This document shows positions 9,180 to 11,557 of a stretch of DNA of 25,961 bases, piece by piece; within the stretch, counting starts at the first letter, position 1; every line of letters begins with the position of its first letter. The stretch spans positions 1 through 25,961 of the IMG/VR virus record IMGVR_UViG_3300043420_000320; one strand, given 5' to 3'. The notes below the pieces were generated by a model that made no database searches, was not told the origin of the DNA, and saw nothing but the letters and a program-made list of their open reading frames with translations. This DNA comes from a virus. A program made the position numbers and the translations under genes.

Positions 9180-9429
9180 CAATGTCATCTTTTGGAACGG
9201 ACTGCTGATACTTGGCAAGAATGTCTGGGTCTGGGTCCAGTACTGTAGCAAGAATGTCCGAATAAAGCAAGATGTTCCTCTGCCCTGCATAGCGAGGGAA
9301 CCTATGGAGAGTTCCGTCAATGATTTCCATTGGGTCTGAAAGGAACACAGAAGGTTCCATCTCCATTTCAGTTATGTAAGAGATTACATATTGCCCTGTC
9401 TTAAGCAGGATCAGTTTGATTGATTCCAT
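9160..9429 (-). CDS. Sm-like (LSm/Hfq-fold) protein, copy 1
   Basis: An 89-aa protein starting at ATG 9429 (the longer frame would need TTG 9444). It begins MESIKLILLKTGQYVISYI, matching the first strands of the other two copies (VKVILLKSGEDVIS and IKVVKLKSGEDIVA), then has a DP-containing turn and ends with ILLYSDILATVLDPDPDIL, which corresponds to the DWVV...P segment of its paralogues. The short beta-rich pattern fits an Sm fold. From memory, an Sm-like protein of putative cyanophage origin has been solved structurally from marine metagenomic DNA; I could not check that it is this family. It overlaps copy 2 by 29 bases and gp43 by 20, directly ahead of the polymerase gene. RNA binding is inference. 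Confidence 0.78.
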   Translation of the reverse strand: MESIKLILLKTGQYVISYITEMEMEPSVFLSDPMEIIDGTLHRFPRYAGQRNILLYSDILATVLDPDPDILAKYQQSVPKDDIDEELLQ

Positions 9430-9769
9430 CTTCTTCAATCTCAATGTTGTGCTTACTGCAATAATCCTTCATGATATTATCATGAGGATCATAAATTGTA
9501 ACTACCCAATCTGCGGGAATAACAAACTCTCTTTGCTTTGAAAGAGGTGCCCAATGAGTATATGCAACTTGAAATTTAATCTTAGGTGTTTTTGCAGTAT
9601 CGCCATCAGCGACAATCTCATCAACTTCTTCTTCGGTTGTCTGCAATTGCATTACATAAGGATTCTTTAGAAAGTATGCAACGATACCTTCATTTGATTT
9701 ATCGAGAATTTCTTGTGCGTCAGAAATTACATCTTCACCAGATTTCAATAAAATAACTTTAACGGTCAT
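9401..9769 (-). CDS. Sm-like (LSm/Hfq-fold) protein, copy 2
   Basis: A 122-aa protein with strand-turn-strand start VKVILLKSGEDVISDAQEI, a central YFLKNPYVMQ element, an acidic insertion around residues 45-60 and then YTHWAPLSKQREFVIPADWVVTIYDP. The last part aligns by eye with WQPLTHDEEIAVNPDWVVSIVEP of copy 3, so the two are clear paralogues. The tail is acidic. The ATG overlaps the nucleotidyltransferase stop by ATGA, and the end overlaps copy 1. Its family fold would suggest a ring-forming RNA-binding protein, possibly assembling with the other copies, but no function is known to me. Confidence 0.8.
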   Translation of the reverse strand: MTVKVILLKSGEDVISDAQEILDKSNEGIVAYFLKNPYVMQLQTTEEEVDEIVADGDTAKTPKIKFQVAYTHWAPLSKQREFVIPADWVVTIYDPHDNIMKDYCSKHNIEIEEDGINQTDPA

Positions 9770-10473
9770 AGTGATAACTTACGATCTTCGATGTCTCTAA
9801 TGTGTTTTGAAAGTTTATCAAGGTATCCACGATTGCGTAACTCTTTGAACACTAAGTTCTCAAGTGCAAACTCTCCACCTTGTTGAATAGCAGATGCTCG
9901 CATGTCTCTGATCCTGTCTTTCAGTTTTCGGAGAACTGCTGGATCATCTGCTTGATTTTCGATCAGGTCGTCAATCTTTTCCATCATATCATGAACCTTC
10001 TTAAAAAGCAAGGGGTCTGTCAGATCCACCTGCTGCTTCTGAGGTTCCTTAATCCACTTGCCATTGAGGAGTGAATACACTCCCTGACCTGCTGGAAGTG
10101 GATCATTGATGTCCTGTGCATAAAGTTCTACAGGATGGGCATAGATCTTAATGTCATGCATCAATGCCCACAGTTGTTTCTTATCCCTCAGGTAATCATC
10201 TAACAGTTCAGGACAGTTAGCAATCTGAGTTTTATCTACAACCAAATGCAAATCCAAATCAGAGAATCTTGTGTAATTAAAGTTGGCATTACCACCAACT
10301 AGAATAATATCTCTGATTGATTCCTGAGGAATCTTTGCAAACTCTGCCCACTTATATCCAATCTCAAGAAGTTTAGATGCAACTTCCTGTCTAAGTTCAA
10401 ACCCTTCCCAAAATTTAAGGTTGAGTTTGTCATGATACATCAGGGTTAACCTGAGTTCTTGAAACGATTTCAC
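9766..10473 (-). CDS. Nucleotidyltransferase (DNA polymerase beta superfamily type)
   Basis: The likely start is GTG 10473, giving 235 aa beginning with an SFQEL segment typical of phage proteins of this kind. The open frame reaches 10635, but that section overlaps the Sm-like gene and crosses its tandem stops region; ATG 10440 is the other candidate. The catalytic pattern is G60-G61-N...S71-D72-L-D74-LHLVVD, the GG/S..DxD signature of minimal nucleotidyltransferases, which transfer NMP to RNA, protein or small molecules. A charged helical C-terminal region (MMEKIDDLIEN, KDRIRDMRASA) follows. The substrate is unknown. It sits between two Sm-like paralogues, a context suggesting RNA as a substrate. 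A late promoter element lies 27 bases ahead of the GTG; no good ribosome site is visible. Confidence 0.82.
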   Translation of the reverse strand: MKSFQELRLTLMYHDKLNLKFWEGFELRQEVASKLLEIGYKWAEFAKIPQESIRDIILVGGNANFNYTRFSDLDLHLVVDKTQIANCPELLDDYLRDKKQLWALMHDIKIYAHPVELYAQDINDPLPAGQGVYSLLNGKWIKEPQKQQVDLTDPLLFKKVHDMMEKIDDLIENQADDPAVLRKLKDRIRDMRASAIQQGGEFALENLVFKELRNRGYLDKLSKHIRDIEDRKLSL

Positions 10474-10498
10474 AGACGCTAAATGAGATTTATTATTA

Positions 10499-10879
10499 TT
10501 ATTTATTATCCACGATTTTAATATTCGCTTCAGTAGCAACGTCTGCTCCGAATGTTGCCTTTGCTTCTTCGATTGGTTTGAGGGTTTGTCCATATGCCTC
10601 CATGACAGACATAATAGGTTCAACAATAGATACAACCCAATCAGGATTCACTGCAATTTCTTCATCGTGAGTGAGTGGTTGCCACGTTTCCAAAAGAATT
10701 CTACCAGTGTATTGCTGGTTTCTCCCTTCAGTTCCAGGAACAACTTCCTTTTCAATAAAAATTTTATATGGTCTATGAAAAACAAATGCCTGCCTGACAC
10801 CAGTTTCTTTATGTTGCACCTCAGATACATCCGCAACAATATCCTCACCAGATTTTAATTTAACAACTTTGATTCCCAT
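10499..10879 (-). CDS. Sm-like (LSm/Hfq-fold) protein, copy 3
   Basis: A 126-aa protein with the same plan as copies 1 and 2: IKVVKLKSGEDIVADVSEV, then FVFHRPYKIFIEKE, then WQPLTHDEEIAVNPDWVVSIVEP, with an acidic/alanine-rich tail. It is the first gene after the perfect sigma70 promoter at 10901-10929, so it should be among the first early products of this operon. The leader would be only about 15 bases with no Shine-Dalgarno. It ends in four consecutive TAA codons. Reading through the operon, the order is Sm3, nucleotidyltransferase, Sm2, Sm1, gp43. Function as RNA-binding regulator is inferred from fold resemblance only. Confidence 0.8.
   Translation of the reverse strand: MGIKVVKLKSGEDIVADVSEVQHKETGVRQAFVFHRPYKIFIEKEVVPGTEGRNQQYTGRILLETWQPLTHDEEIAVNPDWVVSIVEPIMSVMEAYGQTLKPIEEAKATFGADVATEANIKIVDNK
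10500..10507 (-). promoter_or_regulatory. Late promoter element at tandem stop codons
   Basis: The minus strand reads AATAAATA, a variant of the late element. The first of four consecutive TAA stops ending the Sm-like gene (10490-10501) lies partly within it. It is 27 bases before the proposed GTG start of the nucleotidyltransferase. The sequence is low-complexity, so chance is possible. Confidence 0.4.
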
Positions 10880-10900: not shown

Positions 10901-10929
10901 ATTATAAGGGAGTCCTTGGTCTTTGTCAA
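10901..10929 (-). promoter_or_regulatory. Perfect-consensus sigma70 (early) promoter
   Basis: On the minus strand the -35 is TTGACA (10929-10924) and the -10 is TATAAT (10906-10901), both exact, separated by 17 bases, the optimal spacing. It points at the Sm-like/nucleotidyltransferase/gp43/uvsX/gp41 run and should be read by host RNA polymerase early in infection. The start of RNA would be about 10894, leaving a very short leader before ATG 10879. Confidence 0.88.
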
Positions 10930-10937
10930 GGACTCCC
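10908..10937. repeat. Perfect 11-bp inverted repeat overlapping the early promoter
   Basis: GGGAGTCCTTG and CAAGGACTCCC form a perfect stem with an eight-base loop. The palindrome covers the -35 element and most of the -10/-35 spacer. It lacks a T-tract on either strand, so it is a poor intrinsic terminator. It could be an operator for a dimeric regulator, or a stem-loop in late RNA started at 10962-10969. Confidence 0.8.
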
Positions 10938-10961
10938 AGCGCCGACGATATTTGGCGTAAC

Positions 10962-10969
10962 TATTTATA
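10962..10969 (-). promoter_or_regulatory. Late promoter containing the hsp20 stop codon
   Basis: An exact TATAAATA on the minus strand whose TAA is the hsp20 stop (10965-10967). Transcripts would run through the palindrome into the Sm-like genes, giving that operon a late as well as an early promoter. Confidence 0.6.
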
Positions 10970-11393
10970 GATAATCTTTACGAGCATGATGCTCTGGAAC
11001 TACTTTTCCGAGGACGATTCTAAGGAGTCCATCTTCAAAGGTAACTTCTCGTACCTCTGTGTCGTCGGATAAAGTCCACGCTCGTTTAAAACTTCTGCTA
11101 GCCACGCCCTTGTGGATAAACGTCCTGTCCGAATCTGTGTTTGATTTTTCACCCTCGACAAAAAGTTTTCCATACTCCGTGTACGCATGTACTTCCTCCT
11201 TTTTAAATCCTGCTAATGCAATTTCTAAATGAGATTCTACATTATTTACTTGAACAAGATTGTATGGGGGATAGTTTGTTTGTGTTTCAACATTAAATAG
11301 ACGATCAAAATATTCATCCATTCCAATACTATTGCGTGTGATCCTTTCCATCAAAGTAGGAAGATCTGCAGCACTGTACCTAGTGAGATTCAT
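10965..11393 (-). CDS. hsp20: Hsp20-family small heat shock protein
   Basis: The start at ATG 11393 is fixed by an AAAGGAG ribosome site; the longer frame to 11444 is not needed. The 142-aa protein has an N-terminal arm (MNLTRYSAADLPTLMERI), then an alpha-crystallin domain from about residue 40: YNLVQVNNVESHLEIALAGF, ...GKLFVEGEK, and a C-terminal strand FEDGLLRIVLGKVVPE. The family forms oligomers that hold unfolding proteins; in cyanophages it is a common auxiliary gene, thought to protect phage or host proteins. The tail ends HHARKDYL without the usual IxI motif. The gene is preceded by a terminator and a weak promoter and followed by late and early promoters, so it forms its own transcription unit. 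Confidence 0.94.
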   Translation of the reverse strand: MNLTRYSAADLPTLMERITRNSIGMDEYFDRLFNVETQTNYPPYNLVQVNNVESHLEIALAGFKKEEVHAYTEYGKLFVEGEKSNTDSDRTFIHKGVASRSFKRAWTLSDDTEVREVTFEDGLLRIVLGKVVPEHHARKDYL

Positions 11394-11453
11394 TATTGTA
11401 GCTCCTTTAAAAGCGAGTTTGTGTTTTGAGGACCCATATGGCATCCAATACTA

Positions 11454-11504: not shown

Positions 11505-11543
11505 AGGGTGTTCCGACTTTTGTAGAGACCGCACGAAAGGTCT
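11471..11543 (-). ncRNA. Candidate small non-coding RNA, two hairpins
   Basis: A minus-strand RNA started from the late element at 11550-11557 would begin near 11543 and end in the terminator at 11469-11504, giving about 73 bases. It would contain a first hairpin (GAGACC/GGTCTC with an eight-base loop TTTCGTGC, at 11525-11544), a single-stranded linker about 20 bases long, and the terminator hairpin. No open reading frame of note is visible. The layout resembles trans-acting small RNAs. The alternative is an attenuated 5' leader of hsp20. No homologue is known to me. Confidence 0.4.
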
Positions 11544-11549
11544 CGTTAC

Positions 11550-11557
11550 TATTTATA
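11550..11557 (-). promoter_or_regulatory. Late promoter divergent from the plus-strand operon
   Basis: An exact TATAAATA on the minus strand, 43 bases upstream of the plus-strand gene at 11600 and pointing away from it. Its transcript meets the terminator at 11469-11504 within about 75 bases. Confidence 0.6.

Follow-up and report, generated by a model that had tools for sequence, protein, structure and literature searches.

Several known systems share features with the locus described here. The T4-like cyanophage S-PM2 encodes CfrI, a noncoding antisense RNA that is described as about 225 nt long and antisense to phage psbA (PMC12197685, PMC2984593); the S-PM2 copy of the unit reported below lies elsewhere, next to hli03. 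Other conserved, structured cyanophage RNAs in Rfam include PhotoRC-II (found in L103), wcaG and CFrI, but neither these nor any other Rfam family matches our unit at the gathering score in the seven sources searched. The small RNAs sar, of phage P22, and 24B_1 are likewise short and act by pairing, but the targets given for them in the available text are not rRNA (PMC12197685). Complementarity to 5S rRNA has been described for the eukaryotic lncRNA 5S-OT, which, unlike the phage RNA, is made from the 5S locus itself and stimulates 5S transcription (PMC7766524). In the open-access literature searched, we found no phage antisense RNA to 5S rRNA. Finally, early-type and late-type promoters are stacked before homologues of T4 middle genes in RB49, S-PM2 and Syn9; the available text of that report mentions neither a fused hairpin nor an antisense segment (PMC2984593).

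Here we analyze a 25,961-base fragment of a T4-like cyanophage (the window, meaning the whole stretch of DNA examined), whose closest named relative by Hsp20 is Synechococcus phage DSL-LC03 (92.5%). Between hsp20 (10965..11444, minus strand) and a DUF6561/phrog_431 gene (10499..10879, minus strand) lies a site that, in our judgment, probably holds a small late RNA gene of T4-like cyanophages, with a 5′ end antisense to host 5S rRNA and a σ70 promoter threaded through its hairpin.

Results

A consensus promoter overlaps a hairpin behind a late promoter

All elements of the site are on the minus strand. The σ70 promoter consists of TTGACA at 10929-10924, a 17-nt spacer, within the usual 16–18 nt, and TATAAT at 10906-10901, and matches the consensus at 12 of 12 positions. 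The first-pass annotation had called such a promoter unusual, and TTGACA-N16-18-TATAAT indeed occurs once in the window, compared with 0.02 on average over 100 dinucleotide shuffles. We judge this promoter likely to be active. It overlaps a perfect 11-bp palindrome with arms at 10908-10918 and 10927-10937 and an 8-nt loop; perfect 11-bp palindromes with loops of 3–12 nt are found at two places in the window (2272/2273 and the promoter site), where 0.06 would be expected. As RNA, 10908..10937 would form a hairpin with an 11-bp stem, and the fold of 10958-10895 has a predicted energy of -26.5 kcal/mol (z -5.8), equaled by none of 200 shuffled sequences. The -35 element (10924..10929) falls within the 5′ arm and loop of this hairpin, and the -10 element (10901..10906) lies directly 3′ of it, where relatives carry a T-tract.

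A T4-type late promoter, TATAAATA, is present at 10969-10962, 32 nt 5′ of the -35 element, and overlaps the hsp20 stop codon; TATAAATA occurs five times in the window. The coordinates thus bear out the arrangement that had been pointed out, a perfect promoter set in a palindrome behind a late element, and the stacking of early-type and late-type promoters is described as usual before the T4-middle homologues of S-PM2 and Syn9 (PMC2984593). By T4 late promoter numbering (-13/-12; PMC2988020), TATAAATA would occupy -13 to -6, an assignment that agrees with its spacing to the RNA 5′ end in relatives, and the predicted +1 of the late RNA is G10956, 6 nt past the last TATAAATA base. The most informative part of the site, which the first-pass annotation missed, is the conserved stretch of 19 bases at 10937..10955 between late promoter and hairpin.

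The unit is conserved in cyanophages and occurs with and without the σ70 promoter

Related loci were gathered by homology of the downstream gene, by homology of hsp20 and, later, by pattern. In many cyanophages, behind hsp20 or behind other genes, a late promoter is followed in order by GAATATCGTCGGCGC, a strong hairpin and a T-tract, and very often by TATAAT; in the members that bear the promoter, TTGACA lies inside the hairpin. The location of the unit varies: S-SM2 and S-CAM1 have it behind hsp20, in Syn9 and Syn19 it is close to psbA, and in S-PM2 it is placed between hli03 and a gene that is convergent. BLAST with one unit matched 240 phage records at E 0.01, and with another 313 at E 0.1; 13 of the latter are Salmonella phages, which we regard as chance matches, two listed among them being short pieces.

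In one set, 55 units were picked by their hairpin and not by the segment (a 56th row, a false match in L104, was excluded). The near-invariant 5′ segment is present in all 55. Spacing was measured in a set of 55 rows from which a false one (L066) was dropped: late promoter and segment are exactly 5 nt apart in 44 of the 54 units, and an independent scan gave the equivalent spacing from TAAATA to the segment in 53 of 77 units. By the same T4 numbering, transcription from a promoter at this distance would start (+1) with the first base of the 15-nt segment GAAUAUCGUCGNCGC. The gap is longer in the window, where the antisense stretch would run from +2 to +20.

Among the 77 scanned units, a hairpin followed by a T-tract, resembling a terminator, is present in 70. 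A promoter of at least 10/12 with its -35 element in the stem accompanies 53, a hairpin stands without such a promoter in 15, and two have both without overlap; the remaining seven, with neither hairpin nor promoter, look like chance pattern matches. There is no σ70 promoter at the unit in Syn9, DSL-LC03 or S-PM2, the last of which has a convergent gene next to it. Since the unit also occurs without a σ70 promoter, we take the RNA unit to be primary and the promoter an addition. Most members have the -35 element in the 3′ arm of the hairpin; in the window, L004-L009 and L206 it occupies the 5′ arm and loop. In L206, as in the window, the -35 element (TTGGCA) is formed from the conserved apical loop, and TTATAAT takes the place of the T-tract.

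It had been proposed that the late RNA carries the hairpin in its leader and takes over from the early promoter. The first part agrees with the predicted start site. The second does not fit most relatives, in which the late RNA would mostly end at the hairpin because a T-tract follows. In the window copy the strong hairpin is followed merely by TTATAAT, and as this is a poor T-tract, termination there is doubtful; the late RNA may read through and be longer, which would go some way to restoring the proposal of a late RNA that takes the hairpin on into the operon.

A covariance model, R1, was built from 29 units with the window and L004 left out. In a search of 871,773 bases, R1 gave one strong match in each of five phage records and nothing else above 16.5 bits: S-SM2 (69 bits), S-SRM01 (62), DSL-LC03 (55.2), S-SKS1 (53.8) and the window (43.4 bits, E 6.3e-13, at 10904..10953), of which S-SRM01 and DSL-LC03 were in the training set and S-SM2, S-SKS1 and the window were not. 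S-PM2, Syn9, ACG-2014b, S-CAM1 and Syn19 score 51–61 bits. Nine host genomes are without a copy of the unit, their best R1 match being 21.9 bits, at the antisense strand of 5S. The window copy has both the conserved 5′ segment and the covarying hairpin that define the family, and we consider it very probable that the conserved unit is an RNA family.

Not all neighbors of the downstream gene carry the whole unit. L005-L009, the nearest relatives of that gene, keep hairpin and promoter and lack the 5′ segment, so the hairpin-promoter and the putative anti-5S function are separable; R1 finds none of the four records searched from this group (L005, L006, L007 and L009). L094-L100 have neither the hairpin-promoter nor the segment. 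A pattern of the window's own -35 element, right arm and -10 element returned 0 stretches. A scan with TAAATAN{3,9}AATATCTTCG gave 108 distinct places, with the full unit in L410 and L426 only; as the spacing is flat, nearly all of these places are due to chance.

Pairing in the hairpin is conserved while its sequence changes

The window hairpin is the positional homologue of a terminator hairpin that covaries among relatives. Of the cells in an alignment of 30 units, 98.7% are paired, and both sides have changed in 7 of 13 pairs, a level reached by 0 of 500 shuffles. One inner-helix pair in 29 more diverse units is AU in 10, UA in 7, CG in 6 and GC in 6, and is never broken. The sixth base of the -35 element covaries with its stem partner (UA 14, CG 8, UG 3, AU 2, GC 1, other 2); with the -35 threaded through a covarying stem, two codes share the same bases. 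Co-variation of the arms, a check suggested in the first-pass annotation, extends to L005-L009, whose arm sequences differ from those of the window and retain complementarity. Further copies of the arm sequence, a search suggested there as well, did not emerge: with up to two mismatches, the window holds 7, including the two arms, compared with 4.9 expected, and none stands out. We also considered a dispersed repeat and rejected it, as no record holds more than one copy of the apical-loop pattern (CTGGCAAAATCCAG, with up to one mismatch); 7 of 8 records hold one.

The 5′ segment is antisense to host 5S rRNA

Complementarity of the 15-nt 5′ end is to nt ~66-80 of host 5S rRNA, which we take to be the loop E/helix IV region. 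In the window the match extends to 19 of 19 nt (CCAAAUAUCGUCGGCGCUG, 10937..10955), to the allele of Synechococcus sp. GFB01, and the leading G of the predicted RNA would be able to pair by G-U. When nine cyanobacterial genomes were searched with GCGNCGACGATATT, 37 places had at most one mismatch, and all eight exact matches are 5S rRNA genes (seven read directly as 5S, the eighth identified by its 19-mer match); the 5S identity of the matched host genes is backed by Rfam RF00001. A search with the window 19-mer, in which two positions were left free and up to one mismatch was accepted, gave 19 places in the nine genomes, all of them 5S, compared with 0 for the reversed control. Thirteen of these places coincide with RF00001 matches, and the other six, in GFB01 and CH-040, are 5S by reading or by the same 19-mer. 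The complementarity is thus extended and, within the nine host genomes, unique to 5S.

Against 34 host 5S sequences (35 loci, with L398 left out), 111 of 134 phage leaders have an exact antisense match that reaches at least 13 nt, which, because the units share ancestry, is strong evidence on one motif and not 111 independent matches; for the window the longest such match is 19 nt. The longest matches among controls were 8 nt for the sense orientation, 12 nt for shuffled segments (1 of 670), 9 nt for a piece of 23S and 10 nt for the hairpin part. BLAST of 5S against phages returned nothing relevant, the antisense matches being too short for this method.

Could the segment have another target? 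It resembles the psbA codons NIVAAHG, but the host genome matches are to 5S and not to psbA, and we rejected psbA mimicry. Targets within the phage were not convincing: sites with at least 11 contiguous pairs, G-U included, number 69–78 per genome versus 8–68 for shuffled seeds, and those shown are mostly G-U-rich stretches that have no start region in common. Taken with the host matches, the leader suggests, with reasonable though not high confidence, that the RNA has an anti-5S function.

Phage alleles mirror those of host 5S at several positions

Host 5S is variable at few places, and the phage segments vary at matching ones: in the 55 hairpin-selected units, base 9 is C or T, base 11 is G, C or T, and base 2 is A, G or C. 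A scan for a changed base 7 found 11 stretches from four distinct units, all four with T; the host allele that matches T is present in 10 of 34 host 5S sequences, and our guess is that these hosts are of Prochlorococcus type. For a changed base 9, 50 stretches from 29 distinct units were found, with T in 28. The mirrored allele strings are CTTCG, CTTTG (base 7), CGTTG (base 9) and ACTATCG, the last of which is found in L085 and L086, as in the 5S of RCC307, WH 5701 and a Cyanobium. Base 11 provides counter-evidence: the phages mostly have G (35/55), whereas the matching base for hosts would be C (32/34), and S-PM2 has G where its host WH7803 would require C. Judging by these comparisons, phage alleles appear to mirror host 5S alleles, with base 11 often mismatching.

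Discussion

If the unit is a late RNA gene, how might it work? The gp55-type late polymerase would start at the G located 6 nt past TATAAATA and make an RNA of ~50–65 nt, with a 15–19-nt anti-5S 5′ end followed by a terminator-like hairpin. Late in infection, this RNA would probably pair with free or precursor 5S rRNA and disturb the way 5S folds, is processed or is built into new 50S subunits. The σ70 promoter of the next operon is threaded through the hairpin, so that one stretch of DNA would end one transcription unit and start the next. Of this scheme, the sequences establish the conserved unit, its covariation, the fixed distance from the late promoter and the matches to 5S and to the promoter consensus, whereas transcription, pairing in the cell, the effect on ribosomes and promoter activity are inferred. 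As a general proposal, it is fairly likely, in our view, that in several hundred cyanophages a small late RNA pairs with host 5S through a 5′ end matched to the 5S allele of the host clade and stops or remodels ribosome assembly, and that its chaperone could be the Sm-like protein whose gene adjoins it in many of these phages. If true, this would be a new means of taking over translation, by a virus-encoded RNA directed against ribosomal RNA, and the phages concerned infect the main picocyanobacteria of oceans and lakes. The persistence of a fixed 5′ segment on a terminator hairpin in hundreds of phages, despite moves within the genome, would also be accounted for.

The first gene behind the promoter encodes a protein with a predicted Sm/LSm-like fold (AlphaFold2 pLDDT 75.8; Foldseek to 3BY7 E ~1e-6, TMt ≤0.90). 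This is the fold of the Sm/LSm-like protein 3BY7, and a link between protein and RNA is a conjecture. The DUF6561 Pfam match is above the cut-off; an Sm_like match is limited to the paralogue at 9401-9769 and is below it. The operon encodes an Sm-like protein, a nucleotidyltransferase-like protein, a second Sm-like protein and DNA polymerase, and leads on to a RecA-like recombinase and a DnaB-like helicase.

One alternative is a plain fusion of terminator and promoter, in which the hairpin ends hsp20 and late transcripts, the same DNA starts the replication operon and the segment has no function in trans. Such fusions recur: in four phage genomes, a promoter of at least 10/12 lies within 20 of 501 terminators (E ≤ -11), compared with 4.6 expected, and a terminator runs into a late promoter in 5 of 501, compared with 0.5 expected. 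RNA polymerase is reported to be able to remain on DNA after termination and restart nearby (PMC6978380), and such restart would suit these fusions. L005-L009, moreover, retain just the hairpin-promoter part. We nevertheless consider a plain fusion unlikely, as it leaves unexplained the near-invariant segment (55/55), the fixed distance to the late promoter, the 5S match and the mirroring of alleles, as well as the units that lack a promoter or a downstream gene.

It is also conceivable, though quite improbable, that the roles are reversed and the operon is the target: host 5S freed by ribosome breakdown would pair with the 5′ end of the late RNA and alter termination. The same antisense match would serve, the terminator lies right downstream of the segment, and the unit precedes the operon in many members. 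However, no anti-terminator fold is evident, as most members have a segment that is separate from the hairpin, and S-PM2 has no gene at the unit to control.

Another possibility is an element that acts at the level of DNA or initial transcription, with the 15-bp segment tuning escape from the late promoter or binding a protein and the 5S match coincidental. The segment does begin at +1 of the late promoter. Yet there is one copy per genome despite many late promoters (five TATAAATA in the window alone), and it is very improbable that coincidence would produce a 14–19-nt match to 5S together with the matching allele changes; we hold this reading as a whole to be very unlikely.

Least credible of all is the dimeric repressor that the first-pass annotation had envisaged shutting the early promoter, a reading invited by the perfect palindrome across the -35 element and spacer, since pairing is conserved and arm sequence is neither conserved nor repeated, no second half-site stands out in the window, and the unit exists without any σ70 promoter, so the hairpin is not there to shut one; as far as the aligned sequences tell, the palindrome is an RNA hairpin and not an operator.

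Other features near the site

On the minus strand at 9401-10879, two DUF6561/phrog_431 Sm-like paralogues flank a 289-codon ORF (phrog_36119), the start of which lies within the first paralogue. The place of this ORF is taken in DSL-LC03 by a nucleotidyl transferase domain gene, directly behind hsp20.

Before hsp20, at 11506-11557 on the minus strand, TATAAATA recurs as a second late promoter (at 11557), and behind it come a hairpin (GAGACC...GGTCTC) and then a second terminator-like hairpin; together they may be another late RNA unit. A 20-mer of this unit had no match with up to three mismatches in four host genomes. Its 50-bp core is 92–96% identical in many of 105 matched cyanophage records, at other places in the genome; in S-MbCM6, for example, it lies before a DUF680 gene.

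Different combinations of hairpin and promoter also occur. In L022, L035, L081, L084 and L087, a distinct hairpin-promoter (GGGGTTGCC...GGTAACCCC TTTTATAAT) without the 5S segment lies behind hsp20. At ~840-863 of the window, on the minus strand, the T-tract of a terminator hairpin runs into a late promoter (TTTTTTTATAAATA), and similar junctions are present in S-SRM01 and S-SKS1.
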